This document shows positions 39,281-51,000 of a stretch of 64,000 nucleotides of DNA, in pieces (the first letter of the stretch is position 1; every line of letters starts with the position of its first letter). Under the pieces are notes generated by a model. It was not told the origin of the DNA. It did no database searches and was given only the letters and a program-made list of their open reading frames with translations. The position numbers were made by a program, and so were the translations under genes. The stretch comes from an uncultured Opitutaceae bacterium (lineage in GTDB: Bacteria; Verrucomicrobiota; Verrucomicrobiia; Opitutales; Opitutaceae): the NCBI GenBank assembly GCA_937902925.1, contig CALFNN010000047.1, positions 1 to 64,000 on the forward strand, given 5' to 3'.

Positions 39281-40681
39281 ATGAAAACAGTCCGCCATCA
39301 TTTTGGATTTCTGGTGAGCGTCACCGCCCTGGTGGTGACTGCCAGGGCCGCCCAGCCGGCGGCGCACCCGGAGAACGCCCTGGTTGACGGACCGCCGCTG
39401 GTCCAAACGTGGACGCCACCCGTCTATCCGCCCGAGGCGCTGGCGGAAAAGGCCGGCGGCAAGGTGACCGTGCGCATCGTCGTGGACGAGAACGGCCACG
39501 TGACGTCGGCGCGGTCGCTCCAGACTTCCGATCCACGGCTGGGCGAGGCGGCGGTCGCGGCGGTGAAGCAGTGGACATTCAGCCCGGCGATCGAGAACTG
39601 GAAGCTAATCCCGATGTGCCTCGACGTGCCGCTCAGCTTCGATGCAGCGAAAGGAGCCAGGAGCTGGCCTCCGGGAATGCTGCCGCCACCAAGCGTTGTG
39701 GTGAACATCCGGCCTGCGCCCCGCACCGCCGCCGTGTTGAAGTCCGCGCCGCTGGGCGACTATCCCGCGTCGTTGGCGGACCGGCGGTTGACGGGAACGG
39801 TCACATATATCTGCCGGGTGGACGATGCCGGCCATGCCTCGGGATTGCGGGTGGTCTCCGCCTCGCACGCCGATTTCGTGCCGGCGGTGCTCGCGGCTTT
39901 TTCCCGGTGGGAATTTTCGCCGGGGATGCAGGGCGATCTGCCGGTGGCGGGCGAGATGCAGGGCGAAGCCACCTTCGACGCCGTCGCCGCGAAGCCCGCG
40001 GAAGTGCTGGCGGCGAACGGCATCACCGCGCCCGACGGCACCGCCCCGGCCGATTGTCCCCTCCCGGTGTTTGTGGTCGATCCGGTGTGGCCCTTCGAGG
40101 CGCTGTTCGATGGGGAAGGGGGAGGCGCGAGCGTGGATTTCACCGTGCAACCGGGCGGCACCGTGACGGACGTCCGGGTGCGCGACGCGACGCGGCCGGA
40201 GTTCGGCCGCGCGTTGGTGGCGGCGCTCGAGGGGTGGAGCTTCCGCCCCGCGGTGAGCAACGGCCAGCCGGTCGCGGTGGCGCTCGTGAAGCATGCCGAG
40301 TTCAAGGCCGTGCCGGTCGACGCCGCGCCGGGCGAATCCAGCGACCCGCTGGTGCGCTTGGTGCGGCTCGCCCGCGTCGGCGAAATCCGCGGGGGCGCGG
40401 GCCTCGATGAAAAACCGGCGCCGCTTTACCGCGTGGCGCCGGGCTATCCCGCGGCGTTGCGAACGAGCGGCCGGCCCTCCGGGCAGGCGATCGTGGATTT
40501 TGTGATCGACCGCGACGGCCGGGCGCGCCTGCCGCGGGTCGTATCGTCGACCCACGAGGAATTCGGCTGGGCGGCGGCGACCGCGGTGACGCAGTGGGTG
40601 TTCAAGGTGCCGCGGCGCGGGGGCGGGCCGACCGAGGTGAAGGTGCAGATCCCGTTTCAATTCACCGCGCCAGCGGAGTGA
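39281..40681 (+). CDS. Exported protein with four TonB_C-like units
   Basis: A 466-residue protein with a signal peptide (~1-25, FLVSVTALVVTARA) and four consecutive TonB_C-like units with the signatures WTFSPAIENWKLIP, WEFSPGMQGDLPVA, WSFRPAVSNGQPVA and, more divergent, WVFKVPRRGGGPTE. As in the protein at 22713, there is no transmembrane anchor or proline spacer. Repeats of one domain in a secreted protein suggest a scaffold or binding role. Likely co-transcribed with the upstream lipoprotein. Confidence 0.82.
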   Translation: MKTVRHHFGFLVSVTALVVTARAAQPAAHPENALVDGPPLVQTWTPPVYPPEALAEKAGGKVTVRIVVDENGHVTSARSLQTSDPRLGEAAVAAVKQWTFSPAIENWKLIPMCLDVPLSFDAAKGARSWPPGMLPPPSVVVNIRPAPRTAAVLKSAPLGDYPASLADRRLTGTVTYICRVDDAGHASGLRVVSASHADFVPAVLAAFSRWEFSPGMQGDLPVAGEMQGEATFDAVAAKPAEVLAANGITAPDGTAPADCPLPVFVVDPVWPFEALFDGEGGGASVDFTVQPGGTVTDVRVRDATRPEFGRALVAALEGWSFRPAVSNGQPVAVALVKHAEFKAVPVDAAPGESSDPLVRLVRLARVGEIRGGAGLDEKPAPLYRVAPGYPAALRTSGRPSGQAIVDFVIDRDGRARLPRVVSSTHEEFGWAAATAVTQWVFKVPRRGGGPTEVKVQIPFQFTAPAE

Positions 40682-40899
40682 GCCGCGCGCCAGCGACGGC
40701 GCGAGAAATCGAAGCGCGGATGACGTGCAAGCCGATCCGGGGTTTTTTCCCGGGGGAACGGGGACATCGTCCCGCGCGGATGGGCGCCGGAAGGTGTTAC
40801 GTTGTGGGATATTAAACTCGCCTCGATGACGCCGCGCCGTAGTTCTTCCCGGTCCCAGCAGGAATCCAACCCCGGGTTCCATCGTGTTCCACCCAAAGA

Positions 40900-42663
40900 A
40901 TGAACTCTTTTGAAGATCGAGGCGGAGCTGTGTCGTCGACGGGCCTGGCGCCGTCTTTTCCGGCGTTTCCCGGTCTGCCGTTGCCCGATCCCGATCCCAA
41001 CCGCCGCAATCCGCTCCCGACCGCGGGGATCGGGAGCATCCCTCCGGAGACCCGGAGATTTTTCGACGCGGTGCAGGGAAACATCTTGAAGGGACACGGG
41101 CGCGATCATCAGCGGCTGATATTTTTTCGCTTTGCCGGAAACGAAGGACAGAGCCGCCAGCTTCTTTCCGATGCGGTGAACCCGCCGGACGGATCGACAC
41201 CATGGGTGACCACGGCGTCCGCACAGACGACTCAGACCGAGAACTGGATCCAAGCCCGCCCGTTTATCGAGTTGTTCGAGCGGGAGGAATTGTTCGGCGA
41301 AGTAAGATTCACGGATGAGGAAAGAAAGAAGGCCAAAAAAATCATCCTCAAGGCAACGACACAAGTGATCGGGGGCTTGATGCTGTCGAAGGCCGGGTTG
41401 GCCAAATTGGGGTTTATCGATGGAGAGGGCCGGGTGCCGCCCTTCAGCGATTTTAGCTACAACTGGCCGGAACCATTTAGTCGTGGACTGAAGGTGGGGC
41501 TCGAAGGCGACAAGTTCGCGCAGCGCAAGGCCGACCTGACGAAGGACTGGAGCGCGCCGTTCACCGAGGATTTCGACGGCGTCTTTCTTTTGGCATGTGC
41601 CGATAAGAAGACCCTCGACGATAAGCTGGACAAGGAATTCATCCCGTGGCTCGAGCACGCGAGTCATCGCGGCGAGAAGGTGACCGACGGTCGTCAAGAA
41701 TGCACGACTTGGCGCACGAGCGCGGCTGCCGGCGAGCGCGGCCGTCCACGCGAGGCGTTTGGGTTCGCGGATGGAATCAGCGTGACCCGTTTTTTTGACA
41801 CAGAGCGCGATGATGTGCGCCCCGGCGATCCCGAGCCGTGGGAATGGATCGATCTGGCGATGGAGGACGTCTTCATTGGCGAGGACCAGAGCCAGGCCTT
41901 TGCCGGCGGGTCGTTCGTGGCGTTGCTCAAATTCGAACAGGATGTGGCCCGGTTCCGCGCCTACGAAGACTCGATGGTGGAGGCGATGATGGAGCAGGCG
42001 ACGATCGATGAAACCCACGCCCGCGTGCTGGCCGAACCTCTTTTGGCGGGACGCAATCGTGCGGGTGATCCGCTGAAGACGGTGCTTTTCAACCTGCCAG
42101 GCGCCCCCGAAGTGGTGCGTAAACTCTTTGGCCTCGAACTCAACGTGCCGTTTGGCGGCGCGTTTCCCCCGGAGTTGAATATTTTCGATTTCAAGAACGA
42201 CGGCGCCGGCAAGGGGTGCCCCTTTCACGCGCACATCAGGAAAATGAACCCGCGGGTCGACCAAGTCAGGAGCTTCGACAAGAAAGGAATCATCGGGGCG
42301 CAACTCGTCCGGCGCGGCATGGCTTACGATCCGGCCGGCCTGTTGCCGGCGGCCGAGGCGGCGATCGCAAACCACCAAGCCCCCGTGTGGCCGTCCACCG
42401 GCGTCGGGCTGATGTTCATGGCTTTCATGCGCGACCTCAGCGGCCAGTTTGAGCTGTTGCACAACTCCTGGGCCTGGGACACGAGCTTTCCATCCAGCGG
42501 CGCAGGGCAATCGGACCCGTTGCTGTTTGGTGGCTTGGGCGGAAAATGGAAATTCGGCCGGGTAACCTTCGATCCCGTGCCCGCCGTCGTAAAGCGACTG
42601 GGCGGCACCTACCTGTTCGCGCCGTCGATTCTCTGGCTCGCCCGCGGCGGGCGCCGTCCTTGA
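40900..42663 (+). CDS. Long DyP-type peroxidase
   Basis: A 587-residue dye-decolourising-peroxidase family protein. The GxxDG motif is GFADG at 288-292 (distal Asp D291), the haem region is CPFHAHIRKMNPR with H445 as the likely proximal ligand, and RDLSGQFELLHNSWA matches the conserved C-terminal helix. It is longer than the common A/B-type DyPs (about 300-450), with an N-terminal extension before AVQGNILKGHG. There is no signal peptide. Its stop (42661-42663) abuts the AGGAG of the kinase gene, so the two are translated together. Base composition is lower in G+C than the genes before 40.7 kb. Confidence 0.9.
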   Translation: MNSFEDRGGAVSSTGLAPSFPAFPGLPLPDPDPNRRNPLPTAGIGSIPPETRRFFDAVQGNILKGHGRDHQRLIFFRFAGNEGQSRQLLSDAVNPPDGSTPWVTTASAQTTQTENWIQARPFIELFEREELFGEVRFTDEERKKAKKIILKATTQVIGGLMLSKAGLAKLGFIDGEGRVPPFSDFSYNWPEPFSRGLKVGLEGDKFAQRKADLTKDWSAPFTEDFDGVFLLACADKKTLDDKLDKEFIPWLEHASHRGEKVTDGRQECTTWRTSAAAGERGRPREAFGFADGISVTRFFDTERDDVRPGDPEPWEWIDLAMEDVFIGEDQSQAFAGGSFVALLKFEQDVARFRAYEDSMVEAMMEQATIDETHARVLAEPLLAGRNRAGDPLKTVLFNLPGAPEVVRKLFGLELNVPFGGAFPPELNIFDFKNDGAGKGCPFHAHIRKMNPRVDQVRSFDKKGIIGAQLVRRGMAYDPAGLLPAAEAAIANHQAPVWPSTGVGLMFMAFMRDLSGQFELLHNSWAWDTSFPSSGAGQSDPLLFGGLGGKWKFGRVTFDPVPAVVKRLGGTYLFAPSILWLARGGRRP

Positions 42664-42670
42664 GGAGACC

Positions 42671-45511
42671 ATGGATGCGATCGGCCCTTTCCGCTGGCTC
42701 GTCTATCAGCAGGATTACCTCTGGTTCCTGGTGGCGCTGGGTTGGGCCCTGCTGCTGATCGCGTGGTGGCGTCTGGGAAGGCCGGCCCGCATGTTTTTGT
42801 GGGTGCCATGGGCCGCAGTCGCGGGATTTCTGACGGCGGCGCTGGAGGTTTCGCAGATGGTCACGCCGGTTGAGGTGCAGCCTTCGATTGCGCCGTGGCT
42901 CGCGTGGGACCTCGCGCTGGGCGGGTGTTACGCACTGGCCGCGACCGGTTGCTGGTGGGTGGTTGCCGCGCAGAGAAAGAAGAATCGGTCTCGGCTCGCA
43001 GGATTGGTCCTTGCCTCGACGGCTTTGCTGGTCGCGGTGCTTAGGTATGCCTACCCGGAGCCGGGAGCGTGGGTGATCGCGGGGCTCTTGAGTGCCGGAT
43101 CGGCCGCCGTGGCAGCGGGACGAATGCGTGGTGAACGCGTGGCCTTGGCGGCATGGGCGTTGTCGGTCTGGTTTGGAACGGCAGGCCCGTTAGCCGAACG
43201 ATTTAAAGAGCCACACCGGTTTTCTGAGATAAGCAACTTCGGTCCGTGGGCCGCCGCGTGCGGGTTGGTCGCGATCATCGTGATCGTGCTCGATCTCTAT
43301 CGGATCACGCAGGCGGGAAAGATCACGGACGAGGGGGACCCCGAAGAATGGCGCCAGCTTGTGCGCAGCCTGGTGCTATGGCTGTTCGCCGGAGTGTTTG
43401 TGGCTGCCATCATGGGTCGCTGGGCGCGCGCCAACTTCGAGCGCAACCTGCAATCGAGGACGTTAGTCAGCGCGGGACTGATTGATCGACAGAAGCTGCA
43501 AACAATATTGGGAAAGGAATTTCACTTCGACAAGATTTCACGCGGCCGCACGCACAGCGATGGGCGCGAAATACCGTTTGCGACATCTCGCTATCTGGGC
43601 AGTGGAATTCTGGGGCCGATAGCCACGCATTTGACGGATATCGAACTGGCCAATCCTGATGTCCGATGGGCTGCCATCATTACGATGCGGGATGGGTGGA
43701 TGGCGGCTCTTTGCTATTCGACGCGGTTGCCAGGAAACGCCTCGGATGTTGGGGTTTTTGGCCGACCGACGAGAGAAATCTGGCGGGCGTGGGCGGAGCA
43801 CAGCGCTGACGTGCTGGGTCCGGTCGATTTTTACTACGGCGCTGTCGTGCAGGCGCGCGCACCCCTGATCGGACTTCAGGGGCAAATGCTGGGATGGCTG
43901 GCCCTCGATCTTAACGTTGAACATTGGGTGGCGGCGCAAGTGCAGGCGCGGTTGCTGGCCTTTGTCATCGTTGCTTTGGGAGGTGCTCTCCTCGTTGTTA
44001 ACTGGCGCCAACGCCAGCGCGAGCGCCAGCGTGAAGCCGCGCAGCGAGATGCGGACGCGGCGGCAGCCGCGAATCAACTGAAGAGCGCGTTTCTCGCCAA
44101 GGTGAGCCATGAGTTGCGCACGCCCATCCAAAGCCTTCTTGGCTACAGTGAGCTCCTGCGCCAGCGCGTGGCGGACGACTCGAAGGCGTCTGCCTGGCTG
44201 GGATCACTGCGCCAGCAGGGCGAGTTGATGACCCGGCTCGTCAATGACCTGATCGACCTGGGCGCGGTGGAAGCCGGGGCGTTTCAGCTTTCACCCAAAG
44301 CTGTCGAGCCTGCCGACGTCGTGGCGCAAACTGCAGAAAGTTTCCGTCCCCGGGCGGAGGCCAAGGGACTCAACTTCGCATGCTTCGTCGACCCGAGCAT
44401 ACCGCCCTGGGTGCTAACCGATGGTGAACGACTCCGCCAAATCGTCACAAATCTTCTGAGCAACGCCGTAAAGTTCACGGACTGTGGCGGCGTCACTCTG
44501 AGCGCCAGATCGGAGCCTGGAAACAAAGGGACGGCAGACATCATTTTGGTGGTGCGTGATACGGGCCCCGGCATTCCAAGCGCAGCGCAGGCCCGCTTGT
44601 TTTCGGCCTTTTCTCGATTGGAAGCCACGGCGACCAAGGAGGGCTCCGGGTTGGGCCTCGCGTTGTCCGCGGCGTTGTGTCGGGCCATGGGCGGCAATCT
44701 AACGGTCCAGAGCGATGGCGCGACCGGATGCAGCTTCATCGCGACCATTCGAACGCAGACGACGAAAGGACCGGTGAATACGCGGATCGAAACGCCAGCC
44801 GCGGCTTTGCGAGGGCATAGGGTGCTGGTGGTTGACGACAATCCGCTCGTGCGAGAGTTGTTTGTGGCCTTTCTCACGGAGCAGGGCGCATTGTGTGCCG
44901 CGGCGGGAAACGGCTCCGAGGCGCTCGCGCAGGCAGCGACCGACGCGTTTGATGTCGTGGTTCTAGATCTCGCTCTGCCTGATACTGACGGCGCGGAAGT
45001 GGCTCGACGATTGCGAGCGGAGGATGGACGAGGACGCGCATTGCGTCTCGTTGGCGTGAGTGCTCACGCGGGTGCCGCCGACCGGGCGCGGGCGCTGGCT
45101 GCGGGCATGGATGTTTTTCTGACGAAACCGGTGCCATTGGGCGATCTGGCCGCCGCCGTGGCAGGCAGTGCCTCGGGGCCGGAGACGGACACGCTTCCTT
45201 TTCGCACCGGCGAGGCGTTGCGCGAACGACTGACGCGCCAGTTTCGGAATGAGCTTCCCGATCAGCGTGTGGCGTTGGCCGAGGCGGTAACGAACCGGGA
45301 CTGGCAAAGGGTGAGAGTCATGGCGCACCACCTTAAGAATAGTGCAGTCGTAGTTCGTGACGACGAACTCTTCGATACGTGCGCCGGCTTGGAGCAAGCG
45401 GCCGGAAGCGCGAATGGGCCGACGGCGTTGGCCTTTTGGACGCGTTGCGAGCGAGTCCTAGACCGCTGGGCCGCACCGGCGGACGCCCCGTTTTCACCGT
45501 CGGCTGCGTAA
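42671..45511 (+). CDS. Hybrid histidine kinase (HisKA-HATPase-REC-HPt)
   Basis: A 946-residue multi-pass kinase. About eight N-terminal transmembrane helices (~15-265) precede an extracytoplasmic domain (~265-415) and one more helix (~418-440). HisKA H480 lies in AKVSHELRTP. The ATPase region contains LRQIVTNLLSNAVKF (N box), DTGPGIP (G1) and GSGLGLALS (G2). The receiver has D766 in VVLDLALPD, and the HPt domain has H886 in MAHHLKNSA. This is a complete phosphorelay in one chain. The ATG lies seven bases after the DyP stop with a good AGGAG, so peroxidase and kinase are made together. Confidence 0.92.
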   Translation: MDAIGPFRWLVYQQDYLWFLVALGWALLLIAWWRLGRPARMFLWVPWAAVAGFLTAALEVSQMVTPVEVQPSIAPWLAWDLALGGCYALAATGCWWVVAAQRKKNRSRLAGLVLASTALLVAVLRYAYPEPGAWVIAGLLSAGSAAVAAGRMRGERVALAAWALSVWFGTAGPLAERFKEPHRFSEISNFGPWAAACGLVAIIVIVLDLYRITQAGKITDEGDPEEWRQLVRSLVLWLFAGVFVAAIMGRWARANFERNLQSRTLVSAGLIDRQKLQTILGKEFHFDKISRGRTHSDGREIPFATSRYLGSGILGPIATHLTDIELANPDVRWAAIITMRDGWMAALCYSTRLPGNASDVGVFGRPTREIWRAWAEHSADVLGPVDFYYGAVVQARAPLIGLQGQMLGWLALDLNVEHWVAAQVQARLLAFVIVALGGALLVVNWRQRQRERQREAAQRDADAAAAANQLKSAFLAKVSHELRTPIQSLLGYSELLRQRVADDSKASAWLGSLRQQGELMTRLVNDLIDLGAVEAGAFQLSPKAVEPADVVAQTAESFRPRAEAKGLNFACFVDPSIPPWVLTDGERLRQIVTNLLSNAVKFTDCGGVTLSARSEPGNKGTADIILVVRDTGPGIPSAAQARLFSAFSRLEATATKEGSGLGLALSAALCRAMGGNLTVQSDGATGCSFIATIRTQTTKGPVNTRIETPAAALRGHRVLVVDDNPLVRELFVAFLTEQGALCAAAGNGSEALAQAATDAFDVVVLDLALPDTDGAEVARRLRAEDGRGRALRLVGVSAHAGAADRARALAAGMDVFLTKPVPLGDLAAAVAGSASGPETDTLPFRTGEALRERLTRQFRNELPDQRVALAEAVTNRDWQRVRVMAHHLKNSAVVVRDDELFDTCAGLEQAAGSANGPTALAFWTRCERVLDRWAAPADAPFSPSAA

Positions 45512-45550
45512 GCCGCCGGGAACGACCATCAACCTCAAACAGCGATCAAC

Positions 45551-46447
45551 ATGAAGAAACAAAAATCCACTCGTGGAAAACGTGCGGCCAAGGCTGCAAC
45601 TGCGAAAACTAATACGGTATCCGCTTCCAAGCTCGCCGCCGACGAAGTCTGCATGAGCGTCGCGGAGTGCGAGGCCTACGCGACCCAGACTTATTGCCCG
45701 ACGCTTTATTACGGGCTTGGCGCCAAGGCTGCCGCCCTGCTGGTGGTGAAACTCACGAGCGCCGGTGCGATGCAGGTGTTCGCCGGTGACAGTCCGTTGA
45801 GCAACAAGCCGGCGGGAGGCAATCTGAAGACGGAGCGCTACACGACGGACACTTACACGCTCCAAAACTCCGCTGACGTGAAGTTTACCCTGAAGCTGAG
45901 CGCCTTGAACTCCAAGGCGCCGTCGAACGATCCGGATGCTTTACGCAAGACCGGAAATTTGACGGTCGAAGCTCTCGAATGGCCGCGGCCTTACGATGTC
46001 AATCGGGCGCACCTGCTCGGATATCTCGATCCGTTCGGCGGCGACATCAACTATGCCAACTACGGTGGCGTCGATCGCGACGGCGATATCCCGCCCAATC
46101 GGACGTTCGAATGCACGTTTCACTACGTGAAGGCTGCGCCCTCGGCTACACCACCCGTCAAGGGCGAGGCGACGCTTACCCTTACCGATGTGGACAGCGG
46201 CGGAACGAGCACGGAGACGATCGACCTCACCAAACTCGATGACACCTCGGCGGGCAAAGCCGGCGCCATCCTGATTGCAGTGCGCGTCGCGGGCATCAAC
46301 TACGAGGACGGTTGCGCCACGCTGGAATTCAACAAGGCCAACATGGATGGAGCGACCCCGCTCACGTTCTCCGGCAAGACGCGTGGTGGAGCAGCGTTCA
46401 GCGGCTATCGGCAGTTTCACCTTAACGAGACGACCGATCAACCCTGA
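45551..46447 (+). CDS. Unrecognised protein with a basic N-terminal tail
   Basis: A 298-residue protein. The first ~23 residues (MKKQKSTRGKRAAKAATAKT...) are Lys/Arg-rich and probably disordered. Two cysteines sit in CMSVAEC, and the body is beta-rich and soluble, with LTVEALEWPRPYDVN, YANYGGVDRDGDIPPNRTFE and GGAAFSGYRQFHLNETT near the end. No signal peptide and no family is recognised. It is encoded between the hybrid kinase and the response regulator and is therefore likely to be part of the same locus; whether it is a cargo, a target or a sensor cannot be told from sequence. Confidence 0.7.
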   Translation: MKKQKSTRGKRAAKAATAKTNTVSASKLAADEVCMSVAECEAYATQTYCPTLYYGLGAKAAALLVVKLTSAGAMQVFAGDSPLSNKPAGGNLKTERYTTDTYTLQNSADVKFTLKLSALNSKAPSNDPDALRKTGNLTVEALEWPRPYDVNRAHLLGYLDPFGGDINYANYGGVDRDGDIPPNRTFECTFHYVKAAPSATPPVKGEATLTLTDVDSGGTSTETIDLTKLDDTSAGKAGAILIAVRVAGINYEDGCATLEFNKANMDGATPLTFSGKTRGGAAFSGYRQFHLNETTDQP

Positions 46448-46465
46448 CCGAGGTCGAGTCCGCTT

Positions 46466-46503
46466 TCCCAAGTGGTGACAACAGGGCTTTTCGTCACTTG
46501 GGA
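46466..46503. terminator. Hairpin after the DyP-kinase-unknown gene run
   Basis: Nine-base arms TCCCAAGTG and CACTTGGGA flank a 20-base loop, 19 bases beyond the stop of the unknown gene. There is no T-run. It probably ends or attenuates the transcript before the response regulator. Confidence 0.45.
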
Positions 46504-46575
46504 CAAAGCCCCAGCTCAAAACGAAGTTCTTCCCGGGAAATCGCGGGGAAAATTGTGCTACCCTGACTTATTCGC

Positions 46576-47217
46576 ATGCGCACCGCTCGTATCGTCATCG
46601 TTGAAGACCACGCCCTCGTCCGACAGATGCTCGCGCACCTGATCGAGGAAGAACTGAAACTGAAGGTCGTCGGGCAGTGCGCGACGGCGGCGGATGGCGC
46701 CGCCGTCTGCCTGCGCGAAAAGCCGGACCTGGCGGTCATTGACTGGATGCTGCCGGACGGGCGAGGATTCGACATCGTCCGCAACGCCGGGCCGTCGTTG
46801 CCCGGAACCCGGTGGATTTGCATGTCGGCGAACGAGCAGGAGCACCTCGTGCGCGAGGCGGTGGGACTCGGGATCCACGGGTTCGTGATGAAGCGGTCCG
46901 ACTTCAAGATCCTGTGCGACGCGATCCGCGCGGTGCTGGCGGGCGAGAGTTATTATTGCCTCGCCAGTTCGCGGCTGCTCGTCGAATCGATGCGCAGCCA
47001 GGCGCAGGCCATCGCGGTGAACCTGACGCCGCGCGAACGCGAGGTGCTGTGCGGCATCGCGCGCGGCGAGAGCCCGAAGGTGATCGCGTCCAATCTCAGT
47101 CTCGAGCTGAAGACCGTGCACAACCACCTCGCCAGCCTGAAGGACAAGCTTGGCATCCGTGAGGCGGCGGGTCTGGTGCGCTACGCGATCAAGCACGGCT
47201 ACGTCGAGGCGCCGTAG
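46576..47217 (+). CDS. NarL/LuxR-type response regulator
   Basis: A 213-residue regulator with a receiver domain (phospho-acceptor D56 in AVIDWMLPDG, IVEDHALVR at the start) and a LuxR-type helix-turn-helix (~146-210: LTPREREVLCGIARGESPKV, then LELKTVHNHLASLKDKLG). It is the obvious output partner for the hybrid kinase upstream, though pairing is inferred from position. The sequence GTTCTTCCCG occurs just before it (46526-46535), and again before the DyP gene and before the giant gene. It may bind one or more of these sites. Confidence 0.92.
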   Translation: MRTARIVIVEDHALVRQMLAHLIEEELKLKVVGQCATAADGAAVCLREKPDLAVIDWMLPDGRGFDIVRNAGPSLPGTRWICMSANEQEHLVREAVGLGIHGFVMKRSDFKILCDAIRAVLAGESYYCLASSRLLVESMRSQAQAIAVNLTPREREVLCGIARGESPKVIASNLSLELKTVHNHLASLKDKLGIREAAGLVRYAIKHGYVEAP

Positions 47218-48028
47218 ACGGGCCGAACGGCGCCGCGTCGAGCGCCGCGCAGAAAGAGGGTGCGTGCCGTGGGCCAGGATGATCGACCTCCGGCGACTGG
47301 ACGGGGTTTGCTCGGCACGAGGCAGTTGTCGTGGGCAAATCCGGCTTCTTGAGTGCGTGAGGGTGGCGTAGGCTGTTCATTGGTCAAACCGGGGAAAATC
47401 GCCGGGTCACCCGGGGGTTCTTCCCGATCCGATTTCATACTTTCCCGCGCATTTCGGCTGGTCGGTCCGCTATGATAGGGCCATGCAAAATCCGCATTCC
47501 AAGCATTCCCGGGCGTGCAGATTGGAGCGCCTCAGCGGAGGAGCCGGCTTGGGTGTTAAACCTCATAGCGGTTTGGGTCTTATCCGTATTAATACCTACG
47601 TCCGACACGCGGAATCTGTTGAATCTTTACAGTTAATTAATAGCAAAGGCGTCTCCCACCAACGCCCCGCGACCGAGACAAGGGGTTTTGCCCTTATTTT
47701 GGCGTGAGGTCGGACCCAGCCCTGCGGCATCCAGCACCTTCCCAGCGATGAAAGCAGCCTTCGGATTTTCTGCGTTAGCATCGGTTGAAGCCGGAATTTT
47801 TAGCGGCGGTGAGGTGAACCAAATGGCTTTGAGTGGCGATGCGGACCGGTCGTGGTGGCGAATTGCTCGGGCGACGAGCCGAACGCGATGCAGCACGAAC
47901 CACCTTGGCGGCCGCGCGGGTGAAGACGACGCCGTTACTCGCATTCATTCCCCGCCGTAGTCGGACCAGTCCAGGCACTCCTTCCGGTTTCCACTTTTAC
48001 TTCCCACTCCAGTTCTCCAGCGACCCAC
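47218..48028. other. Long gene-free region upstream of the giant gene
   Basis: About 811 bases with no supportable gene. It contains a GTTCTTCCCG site (47417-47426), an AT-richer segment around 47590-47640, and a short hairpin AAGGG...CCCTT followed by ATTTT (47680-47700). Part of the region (about 47640-47940) reads like conserved intergenic text, with an open minus-strand frame that lacks gene-like features. A possible -10 (TATGAT) lies at 47471-47476. The size of the region fits a long leader or a complex promoter for the giant gene. Confidence 0.4.
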
Positions 48029-51000
48029 ATGAAAACGCGTTCTTTGCTTCCGCGCCTCGCCCTCGTCTGCCTCGGTCTGCTCGCGAGCGAAACGCGCGCG
48101 GCGCCGACGATTAGCAGCCAGCCCTTCGCCGCCACCGTTTCGAGCGGCAACAACATCACGCTGTCAGTCAGGGCTACGCCATTGAGCGGATCGCTGTCGT
48201 TTCAGTGGCGTAAGAACACGGGGAGTGTGGTCACCGGGACTTTCCTCAGCGTAGTCACCACGGTGAACGGAGACGGCAGCACCACGTCCGCGCTCAATTT
48301 CTCCAATCCTCAGGTTGCCGACGCCGGCAACTACGACGTCATTGTCACGGACGGCTCGGGGAATGTCACGAGCAGCACGGCCGTTGTCGCGATCACGGAT
48401 GATCCCCCGTCGATCACCGGTCAATCCGAACCGTTTCTTTATGCGCCGATGGGTGGAACCGCCCGCCTATTCGCCAACGTAGTCGGTTCCACGCCGTTCA
48501 CCATGCAATGGAAGCGCGACGGCGTCGGGCTCGACGGTCCTTACTATGGCACCTCGGTGAGCACAATTGACGTGGCCAATCTCGCGGCCGGCCAGTTTGG
48601 CACCTATACGCTCGAGATATCCAACGCCTACGGCTCGACGGTATCGCAGCCCATTCTGGTAACCCAGACGTCGGCGGCGCCCTATCACAATTGGTCGTTC
48701 CGCAATCCGACTCCGCAAGGCAACAGCCTTAATTCCCTGACTATCGGGTCGGCGCGCTTGGTGGCGGTTGGCGCAGGCGGGCTCATTCTCACGTCGTCCG
48801 ATGGCGGGAATAGCTGGCAGGGCCAGTCCGGCGGCATCATGCAGGCGCTCAACTACGTCACCTACGACGCCGCGAAAAGCCAGTATCTCTATGGTGGCGG
48901 GTTCACACAGATCGCGACCGCGCCCGATGCGCCCACGCTCACCTGGACGACGCATTATCCGGCGGGAGCCAACGAGAGCTACCCGGGCATCGCCACCGAT
49001 GGTTCACGCTATGTGGCCGTGGGCGGCGATTTTTCGACGAAGCCGATCAGCGCCGTCGCGCGCATCTCGACCGATGGCGGCCTCACCTGGACGACGCAGG
49101 TGCACCCCGGGGTTAATCTGGCGCTGACCAGCGTGGCGTTCGGCGCGCCGAAGTTCGTCGCGGTCGGCCCCAGCGGCACCGTGTTGAACTCCACCGACGG
49201 CACATCATGGGGTGCGGTGACTTTCTCGCCCTCGGCCCCGACGGCCAACTTCAACCGGATCGTTTTCGCCAACGGCACGTTCGTGGCGGTCGGTAATGGT
49301 GGCATCATCTACACATCGACGGACGGTGCCACGTTTACCCAGCAGACCAATGCGAATACCAACAACCTTTTCAGCGTGGCGCGAGTCTCGGGTTCTGGTG
49401 GCACCGCCTTGTGGGCGGCGGTTGGCGCCAACGCCACTGTCCTGACCTCCGCGGATAACGGGATCACCTGGTCCGCCGCCCTGGCGCCGGGTCCGACGAC
49501 CCTCGCGCTCAACGACATTCAGAGCGACGGGACCAACGTCTACATCGTCGGCCAGGCCGGCCGCATCCTGAAGAGCACCTCGGCCGCGAGTTTTACCGCG
49601 GCGTCCCTCACCGAACTCAGCTTCTCGGTTCAGTCCGACTACAGCAACACCATCAACGATGTCATTTGGGATGCGACGACGAGCCAGTTCGTCGCCGTCG
49701 CAGCCACCGGCAATATTCATACCTCACCCGACGGGATGAGTTGGACGCGCAGTGCGAGTTTGCCCGCCCTCGGTTTCATCGGCGGAGTCGCCCGATTTGG
49801 GTCGCAATTCCTCGCGGCTGCCAATGCACACATTGCGACGTCGAGCGATGGACAGAATTGGACCGACCCAGGAGCCATCTCTGGCGCGAGCGGTTTCAAT
49901 AGTATCGCCGCGTCCGCGTCCGTGGCCGTGGCGGTCGGGGCCGGCGGCAAGATTTTCAAATCAAGCACCGGAACCGCGTGGACCGCCGCCGCGAGCCCGG
50001 GCTCGGGCAACACCGGCTCGGTCCTCAACCGCGTCGTCTATGGCAACGGCCGGTTCATGGCTGTCGGCGGCAACAACAACGGCGGCACCTCGATCGTCAT
50101 TCGCACGTCCACCGACGGCGATAGTTGGACGACTCTCAACCCCGGCACCGTGGGGCAGCTGTGGGGTGTCGACTATGGCAACGGCATCTGGATGGCGATC
50201 GGTTCGGGCACGAGCAGCGGGGGCGGGGCGTTTATCCTCCGTTCCAGCGACAACGGCACCACCTGGCAGCGCGACAATCTTCCGGGTGCGACATTTGCCT
50301 ACAGTCTCCGTTACCTGAATGGCGCATGGTATTTCGTCGGTAGCTCGAGCGTGCTCGGCGTCTCGCACGACAACGGCGACGACTGGGAGTATGTCCCGCT
50401 GTCAGCGCGCCCCGCGGTCCAAACGATGCGCGGCGTTGCCGTGGGCAACGGTTACATGGTCATCGTCGGCAACGACAGCACGATTCTCCGGTCCGCGAAC
50501 GAAAACAATCCGCCCTCGATCGCAGTCCAGCCGCCGCTCTCGCAGTCGGTCGTGCAGGGATCGACGGCCATGATCAGCGTGACGGCCGGGCAGTCGGTCT
50601 CGACGACCTATCAATGGCGCAAGAACGGGACGAATATTTCCACCGTTTCCAATCCATCGGCGGCGAGCCCGACGCTCGTGCTGCCCAATGTGCAGGCCGC
50701 GGACCTTGCGAACTACGATGTCGTCATCACCAACTCGGTGGCGTCGACCACGAGCAGTCCAGCCAGGCTCCTGCAGTCCCCCGCGAGTGGTGACACCTTT
50801 CCGAACTTCGCCTGGCGCAACCCGCTCCCCGCGGGCGGCACTTTGCAAACGGTGATTTTCGCGCAGTCCAAGTTCGTCGCCGCCGGCGTCGGCGGCCGCG
50901 TGCTGACATCGACCGATGGCTCGATATGGACGCCTTCCCTGAACCCCATGCCGGTCGAGAGCATCTACGGGCTCGCCTACGACGGCACGCGATTCATCGC

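Follow-up and report, generated by a model that had tools for sequence, protein, structure and literature searches.

A 64,000-nucleotide stretch of DNA from an uncultured Opitutaceae bacterium (contig CALFNN010000047.1 of assembly GCA_937902925.1; the whole stretch is referred to as the window) carries on one strand the genes of a DyP-type heme peroxidase, a hybrid histidine kinase, a small protein of 298 amino acids (aa) and a LuxR-type response regulator. All four open reading frames (ORFs) lie where a first-pass annotation, made from the letters alone, had placed them (Table 1). Judging from sequence, we favour, at a probability of about 0.6, an autoregulated phosphorelay whose regulator would switch on the DyP operon, and the data below suggest that the block is an undescribed, self-regulating peroxidase signalling module.

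The gene order is conserved among relatives. A DyP profile matched 8 of 252 genomes of the family, and seven of these, from six genera, carry the order DyP–kinase (of the same sensor type)–small protein, with the regulator gene downstream on the same strand. These are G000 (the genome of the window), G112, G513, G115, G524, G535 and G020; the eighth, G516, has its DyP on an 11-kb contig without a kinase. The search for this order in other genomes that the first-pass annotation had proposed thus found relatives of the four genes as neighbours in six further genomes. Because a limited number of candidates was scored per genome (up to 5 for DyP, 12 for the regulator, and 6 or 3 in the other searches), members may have been missed. 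The small proteins of the operons range from ∼175 to 298 aa, and the LuxR-type regulator gene follows 0.1–2.6 kb beyond them, in some genomes with another gene between the two; in G115, a second regulator gene precedes DyP. Identity to the window protein is 24–41% for DyP, 29–45% for the kinase sensor and 55–65% for the regulator (five relatives; the regulator of G524 was left out of the alignment).

Within the operons the genes are tightly packed. The gap between DyP and kinase ranges from −4 to +7 nucleotides (nt), and that between kinase and small protein from −8 to +42 nt (the kinase starts of G524 and G020 were read from the junction, as TTG or ATG overlapping the DyP stop). In the window, the DyP stop codon occupies positions 42661–42663, the kinase ATG lies 7 nt further, and a GAGGAG adjoins the stop codon. 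The kinase ribosome site that had been described as overlapping the DyP stop does touch it; the joint production concluded from it is supported, though not demonstrated, by such junctions in 7/7 genomes and by one common promoter type.

Outside the family, no such arrangement was seen. A phylum sample of 387 genomes gave DyP matches only in three family members (three candidates scored per genome), and the same kinase stood beside DyP in none of 59 DyP loci of other bacteria, within the stretches fetched (these DyPs are the ones with N-terminal scan-pattern peptides, and several stretches end at contig ends). Some other kinase, with a different sensor, was present in 8 of the 59 loci (L028, L035, L036, L044, L061, L064, L068 and L077). 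In two of them, from Methylobacter (L036 and L044), DyP directly follows an unrelated kinase gene of the same orientation, which may be a DyP–kinase pairing of independent origin.

The kinases of the block share a common ancestor. In a tree of 29 distinct rows (from 32 sensor hits that passed the coverage filter), the seven DyP-linked and eight DyP-less kinases form one clade (100/100), within which the DyP-less kinases are a single sub-clade (100/97); DyP linkage requires two changes on this tree versus 6.4 with shuffled labels. Common ancestry of the linked DyPs has moderate support: in a tree built by a quick method from the 65 of 67 DyPs that passed a length filter, a single unstarred branch with an SH-aLRT of 93 separates all seven from the others. 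The pair of window and G112 recurs in the DyP and kinase trees, starred in both, as does the pair of G115 and G513, which is starred in the DyP tree and has 93/88 in the kinase tree.

The window's block stands at another site than those of its relatives. In all six, the operon is preceded by a divergent TPR gene, which in G115 is separated from it by another regulator gene; the window has no TPR gene there, and the upstream neighbour of its block is instead a gene (39281–40681) for a 466-aa protein with four TonB_C stretches by Pfam. On a second contig of the same genome, C70, stand a second regulator gene, a kinase gene of the same clade and a TPR gene, but no DyP. A supported group (98/95) unites the C70 regulator with the regulators of the other DyP genomes; the window regulator is not part of it, adjoins long branches, and is placed elsewhere in the regulator tree than that of G112, the genome with the nearest DyP and kinase. 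The TonB_C gene in place of TPR, the regulator and TPR genes kept on C70, and the regulator tree are our reasons for assigning the block a different location, next to a divergent regulator.

Regulator genes and DyP operons share a promoter signature. Upstream of many regulator genes in relatives we found a layout of CGGGN5TTCCCG, ∼16 base pairs (bp), TCCCGSGCA, ∼15 bp and a −10-like element. It was first noticed by eye in the regulator and DyP upstream regions together, so the test of it was not blind; the scoring matrix was nevertheless built without DyP sites and without any site of the window, from 12 sites at regulator genes (some facing a divergent neighbour) of ten other genomes, four of which also carry the DyP operon. 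Upstream of DyP this matrix scored 35.3 bits in the window, 34.3 in G112, 34.4 in G513, 31.8 in G115, 27.3 in G524, 33.3 in G535 and 24.5 in G020. The DyP site at 40738 is the best in the entire window, followed, as separate places, by 47412 (33.8 bits) and 46499 (18.5 bits); since the best score in 20 block shuffles of the window was 18.8, the 46499 copy is not significant alone. Negative controls scored low: −4.2 and 2.2 for a second kinase of G112 and its regulator, 6.0 for the second regulator of G115, −4.4 for the C70 kinase, 0.6 for the window kinase and 0.2 for the TonB gene. DyP loci of other bacteria (887 kb), a null set chosen without matching base composition, reached 17.3 at most.

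An exact pattern, CGGGN5TTCCCG-N15–17-TCCCG, is enriched in genomes that carry the regulator. The 6.0-Mb genome of the window has three matches, two of them at or flanking the block, and none to the control. Over the 252 genomes we counted 75 matches versus 34 for a reversed control. The excess lies mainly in the 34 regulator-bearing genomes (38 matches, in 17 genomes, versus 5 in the control), as compared with 37 matches, in 31 genomes, versus 29 in the control among the 218 genomes without a regulator match, some of which may still carry one given the 12 candidates scored. Of the 38, 28 lie ≤ 350 bp upstream of a regulator or DyP gene: 23 at 14 regulator genes (9 of these count a near-palindromic site a second time, on its opposite strand) and 5 at DyP genes. 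The remaining 10 are elsewhere. With one mismatch allowed, the pattern had 10 matches in G000 versus 9 for the control, so that most of these are chance, and such matches were credited only at a high matrix score, namely at 47412 and on contigs C70 and C60.

Further sites in G000 point to additional genes. One likely site precedes the C70 regulator (38.0 bits). Two others, at C60 30078–30113 (L211; 32.5 bits) and C104 188432–188468 (L170 and L171; 29.1 bits), precede, respectively, the gene of a lipoprotein-like protein of at least 471 aa and that of a 220-aa protein with a hydrophobic stretch visible by eye and no Pfam match; both genes are candidate regulon members. The 811 bp that follow the regulator gene in the window had no second copy in their own genome among the best 40 of 80 candidates. 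Within the window, a 74-aa ORF (47483–47707), which may not be a gene, begins just past the 47412 copy, and 617 nt after that copy a giant ORF starts at 48029 and runs beyond 64000 (> 5324 aa); its start looks signal-like by eye, and it combines Ig-like domains with BNR/PSII_BNR-like and DUF5122 beta-propeller repeats.

The signalling proteins of the window have intact phospho-acceptor residues. By Pfam, the 946-aa protein comprises HisKA, HATPase_c, Response_reg and Hpt domains, which bears out the complete phosphorelay read from it earlier, and its phospho-acceptors are H480 (HisKA), D766 (receiver) and H886 (HPt). In the kinases of the six relatives, the HisKA and HPt motifs are present in 6/6 and the receiver motif in 5/6 by the pattern used. 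Hydropathy gives seven to eight segments in residues 17–248, then a region of ∼175 residues that is probably outside the membrane, and a last segment at 424–442. The 213-aa protein is a LuxR-type regulator, as annotated, with Response_reg and GerE domains by Pfam, D56 in place, and no membrane segment by simple hydropathy.

Since the regulator is where the relay ends, and the promoter signature of regulator genes stands before all seven operons, the simplest circuit runs from kinase to regulator to operon. The membrane kinase would receive a signal and pass phosphate from H480 via D766 and H886 to D56 of the regulator, which in its phosphorylated form would bind the predicted CGGGN5TTCCCG/TCCCG promoter layout. 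The DyP–kinase–small-protein operon would thereby be switched on, as would, in many relatives, the gene of the regulator itself, creating a positive loop. The enzymatic output of this loop would be the DyP peroxidase, which we take to be cytosolic because no export signal was seen. The small protein probably works with the kinase or DyP; its presumed co-production with the kinase and its rapid change would suit an adaptor or specificity factor.

The first-pass call of a DyP peroxidase proved right. A phmmer search of PDB sequences matched the 587-aa protein to AnaPX (5c2i) with an E-value of 3.7e-22, and profile scores fell below their cut-offs: 66.2 bits versus 100.5 for TIGR01413 of NCBIfam (E 2.9e-18), and 23.5 versus 27.5 and 17.4 versus 20 for PF21105 and PF20628 of Pfam. 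An AlphaFold2 model built with 38 aligned sequences reached a predicted template modelling score (pTM) of 0.78 and a mean predicted local distance difference test (pLDDT) of 72.5, with pLDDT < 50 in residues 275–295, the stretch that contains the GxxDG motif. Its top Foldseek matches were DyPs (best E 1.8e-20), and the nearest, DyP2 (4g2c) and AnaPX, share the fold with a TM-score of 0.71–0.73 over the known chain and a root-mean-square deviation of 6.4. D291, H445, R471 and R472 are invariant across the 38 aligned proteins, and D291, H445 and R471/R472 also in the seven linked DyPs; we take the Asp in GxxDG to be distal, the His proximal and the Arg distal. On account of the AnaPX match, the DyP fold and these invariant residues, we conclude that the protein is a DyP despite its profile scores, with predicted heme binding and peroxidase activity.

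AnaPX (Alr1585) and Amycolatopsis DyP2 are presumably of the class C/D kind. The window protein has in common with them the GxxDG, proximal His and distal Arg motifs, yet it is ∼120 residues longer than the 468-aa chain of AnaPX, keeps an Asp where AnaPX reads FGFVHG, and differs from both in being co-encoded with a kinase. Simple hydropathy revealed no hydrophobic or export-like segment in it.

The 298-aa protein was unrecognised in the first-pass annotation, and it had no match in Pfam (E up to 1), NCBIfam, PDB sequences, or plasmids and viral contigs; nor did its counterparts in five relatives (all but G524) match Pfam above cut-off. When used as a single query, it matched two genomes among 150 from the family and two among 387 from the phylum, in both cases G000 and G112. 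Single-protein folding (pLDDT 38, pTM 0.27) was too low for a fold statement, and the one marginal hydropathy stretch (60–78) has no equivalent in G112. Pairwise identity is 36% over the alignment for window and G112 and 28% for G513 and G115; the remaining pairs had no significant BLAST match. A profile comparison of these two pairs gave an E-value of 0.0077, and other comparisons were worse. In leave-one-out profiles, the protein left out ranked first in 5/7 cases, second for G535 and 12th for G524, the four strong cases being the two closer pairs. All seven have in common a W and an LG with 11 residues between (W-x11-LG; the W is taken from the aligned region), at the place where most independent profile comparisons align. 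Homology across the seven genomes is thus weak by ordinary sequence comparison, and the proteins appear to form a new, undescribed family.

The small proteins encoded behind DyP-less kinases (G000 C70, G042 and G108) were considered for this family and rejected as a different one. On C70 (L115 4258–7923), the kinase is followed by a 184-aa protein that matches Agglutinin_C (PF18021) and has DCDDF and HAMNW motifs, reminiscent of a cysteine protease; proteins similar to it stand behind the G042 and G108 kinases.

Several observations weigh against the circuit from kinase through regulator to operon. The promoter copy of the window's own regulator is degenerate, and one of the 20 shuffles exceeded its 18.5 bits with 18.8; this regulator is a divergent paralogue, and the C70 regulator of the same type, with its 38.0-bit site, could be the true controller. 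The C70 kinase has no layout site (−4.4 bits), the exact match occurs in only half of the regulator-bearing genomes (17/34), and the exact pattern is missing in two of the seven DyP operons (G115 and G020). Moreover, signature-bearing regulators occur in genomes without DyP, so that the relay predates the peroxidase and is not dedicated to it. The layout could also be that of a different factor present in the same genomes as the regulator.

The main rival to this circuit turns its direction around: DyP would act as the sensor, with either the enzyme or the product it oxidises informing the kinase, and the relay would report peroxide, heme or a phenolic substrate. That the DyP gene comes first, with an overlap or almost no gap to the kinase gene in 7/7 genomes, would fit, as would a DyP and a kinase sensor far more divergent (24–41% and 29–45%) than the regulator (55–65%), a small protein mostly below BLAST detection, and the separate sub-clade of the eight DyP-less kinases. 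However, fast divergence may reflect relaxed constraint, DyP lacks a hydrophobic or export-like segment while the kinase has a large region probably outside the membrane, and the promoter type common with regulator genes is explained by DyP as a target. We regard a sensing DyP as unlikely. An elaboration that we hold to be rather doubtful is a peroxidase-gated phosphorelay, in which DyP turnover (of peroxide, heme or a phenolic) would be the kinase input, the W-x11-LG protein a fast-evolving, lineage-specific adaptor, and the regulator would feed back on the DyP operon and on the giant secreted-type beta-propeller/Ig-like protein. If true, this would be, to our knowledge, the first heme peroxidase to be dedicated to a bacterial sensor kinase as its partner.

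It is improbable that DyP, as an ordinary detoxifying enzyme, and a kinase/regulator pair with some other task adjoin by history only. The absence of this kinase from the stretches fetched for the 59 outside DyP loci and the eight same-clade kinases from genomes or contigs without DyP would agree with two separate units, but the order is kept in six genera, including a genome with the block at another site, the gene gaps are near zero, and the promoter layout is common. Still less credible to us is that the block is a recently acquired mobile unit. The lower G+C noted in the first-pass annotation is real: it is 45% in 41281–41340, and 62.1% in the block, as against 67.7% in the preceding and 64.7% in the following 10 kb. 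This offset, the lower G+C at third codon positions (GC3) of the DyP, kinase and small-protein genes and the block's unusual site in this genome speak for mobility. Yet in the four relatives for which all genes are listed, with the operon at its usual site, GC3 of these three genes is likewise below that of the regulator gene (for the kinase by only 0.02–0.03 in two of them), and the window regulator gene has an ordinary GC3 of 0.874 and a separate place in the regulator tree. Low G+C is for these reasons poor evidence for recent transfer, and the acquisition as a unit at which it had been said to hint is not supported on that basis. Near DyP relatives were found only within the family (252 family genomes and the 387-genome phylum sample), and the window lacks tRNA genes. 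Support for a recent acquisition of the block as a unit is thus weak.

Known DyP systems resemble the block only in part. As outlined in PMC3577903, the EfeUOB/FepABC iron–heme systems also have a DyP (EfeB) gene within an operon, where the extracytoplasmic EfeB sits with a permease and EfeO. Unlike the exported EfeB, the window DyP has no hydrophobic segment, and neither an EfeU permease nor EfeO is encoded by the five genes of 39281–47217 (Pfam; farther genes were not scanned for these), which sets the block apart from EfeUOB. Structures of encapsulin-associated DyPs are among the Foldseek matches; the same five genes gave no Pfam match to an encapsulin shell protein or copper oxidase (farther genes were not scanned for these). 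We know of no kinase in encapsulin–DyP or DtpA systems. Membership of the DyP family is what the window protein has in common with encapsulin-associated DyPs and with DtpA, which is Tat-exported (PMC4736821).

Phosphorelays of the ArcB/TorS/EvgS type likewise combine the order HisKA–ATPase–receiver–HPt with a DNA-binding regulator nearby. The window kinase, however, scores far under the cut-offs of the corresponding NCBIfam families, and the listed matches span it only from residue ∼420, hence its sensor region is different; the operon further differs by its peroxidase and small protein. In line with the first-pass annotation, which knew of no described signalling of this kind, a search of open-access literature, judged from the titles and abstract openings of the papers listed, revealed no DyP encoded with its own kinase. 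The parts of the block are of known kinds; their combination, like the promoter signature and the small-protein family, appears to be undescribed within that literature. According to PMC3577903, little is understood of what bacterial DyP peroxidases do in nature. A DyP with its own sensor, relay, promoter signature and dedicated small protein makes the inducing signal and the function directly testable, and the operator prediction is specific enough to be checked by one footprint.

Table 1. Features of the DyP block and its predicted promoter sites in the window.
Feature	Position	Strand	Basis or remarks
Predicted promoter/operator of the DyP operon	40738..40803	+	CGGGGTTTTTTCCCG, 17-bp spacer, TCCCGCGCG, 15-bp spacer, −10-like element; exact pattern match, 35.3 bits
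DyP-type heme peroxidase, 587 aa	40900..42663	+	PDB sequence match, fold, motif residues
Hybrid histidine kinase, 946 aa	42671..45511	+	Pfam domains, hydropathy, phospho-acceptor motifs
Small protein, 298 aa, W-x11-LG signature (W144), apparently undescribed, very divergent family	45551..46447	+	
Degenerate promoter-layout copy before the regulator gene	46499..46564	+	18.5 bits, alone not significant
NarL/LuxR-type response regulator, 213 aa, phospho-acceptor D56	46576..47217	+	Pfam
Second strong promoter-layout copy, past the regulator gene	47412..47476	+	33.8 bits

Positions 40600–48400 contain no known RNA family at E up to 1. Near window position ∼48000, where the block ends and the giant ORF starts, GC skew turns from mostly positive to mostly negative. 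In G112, a second pair of hybrid kinase and LuxR-type regulator, with a related sensor and without the promoter layout, lies near the DyP block (L004 12465–16090).

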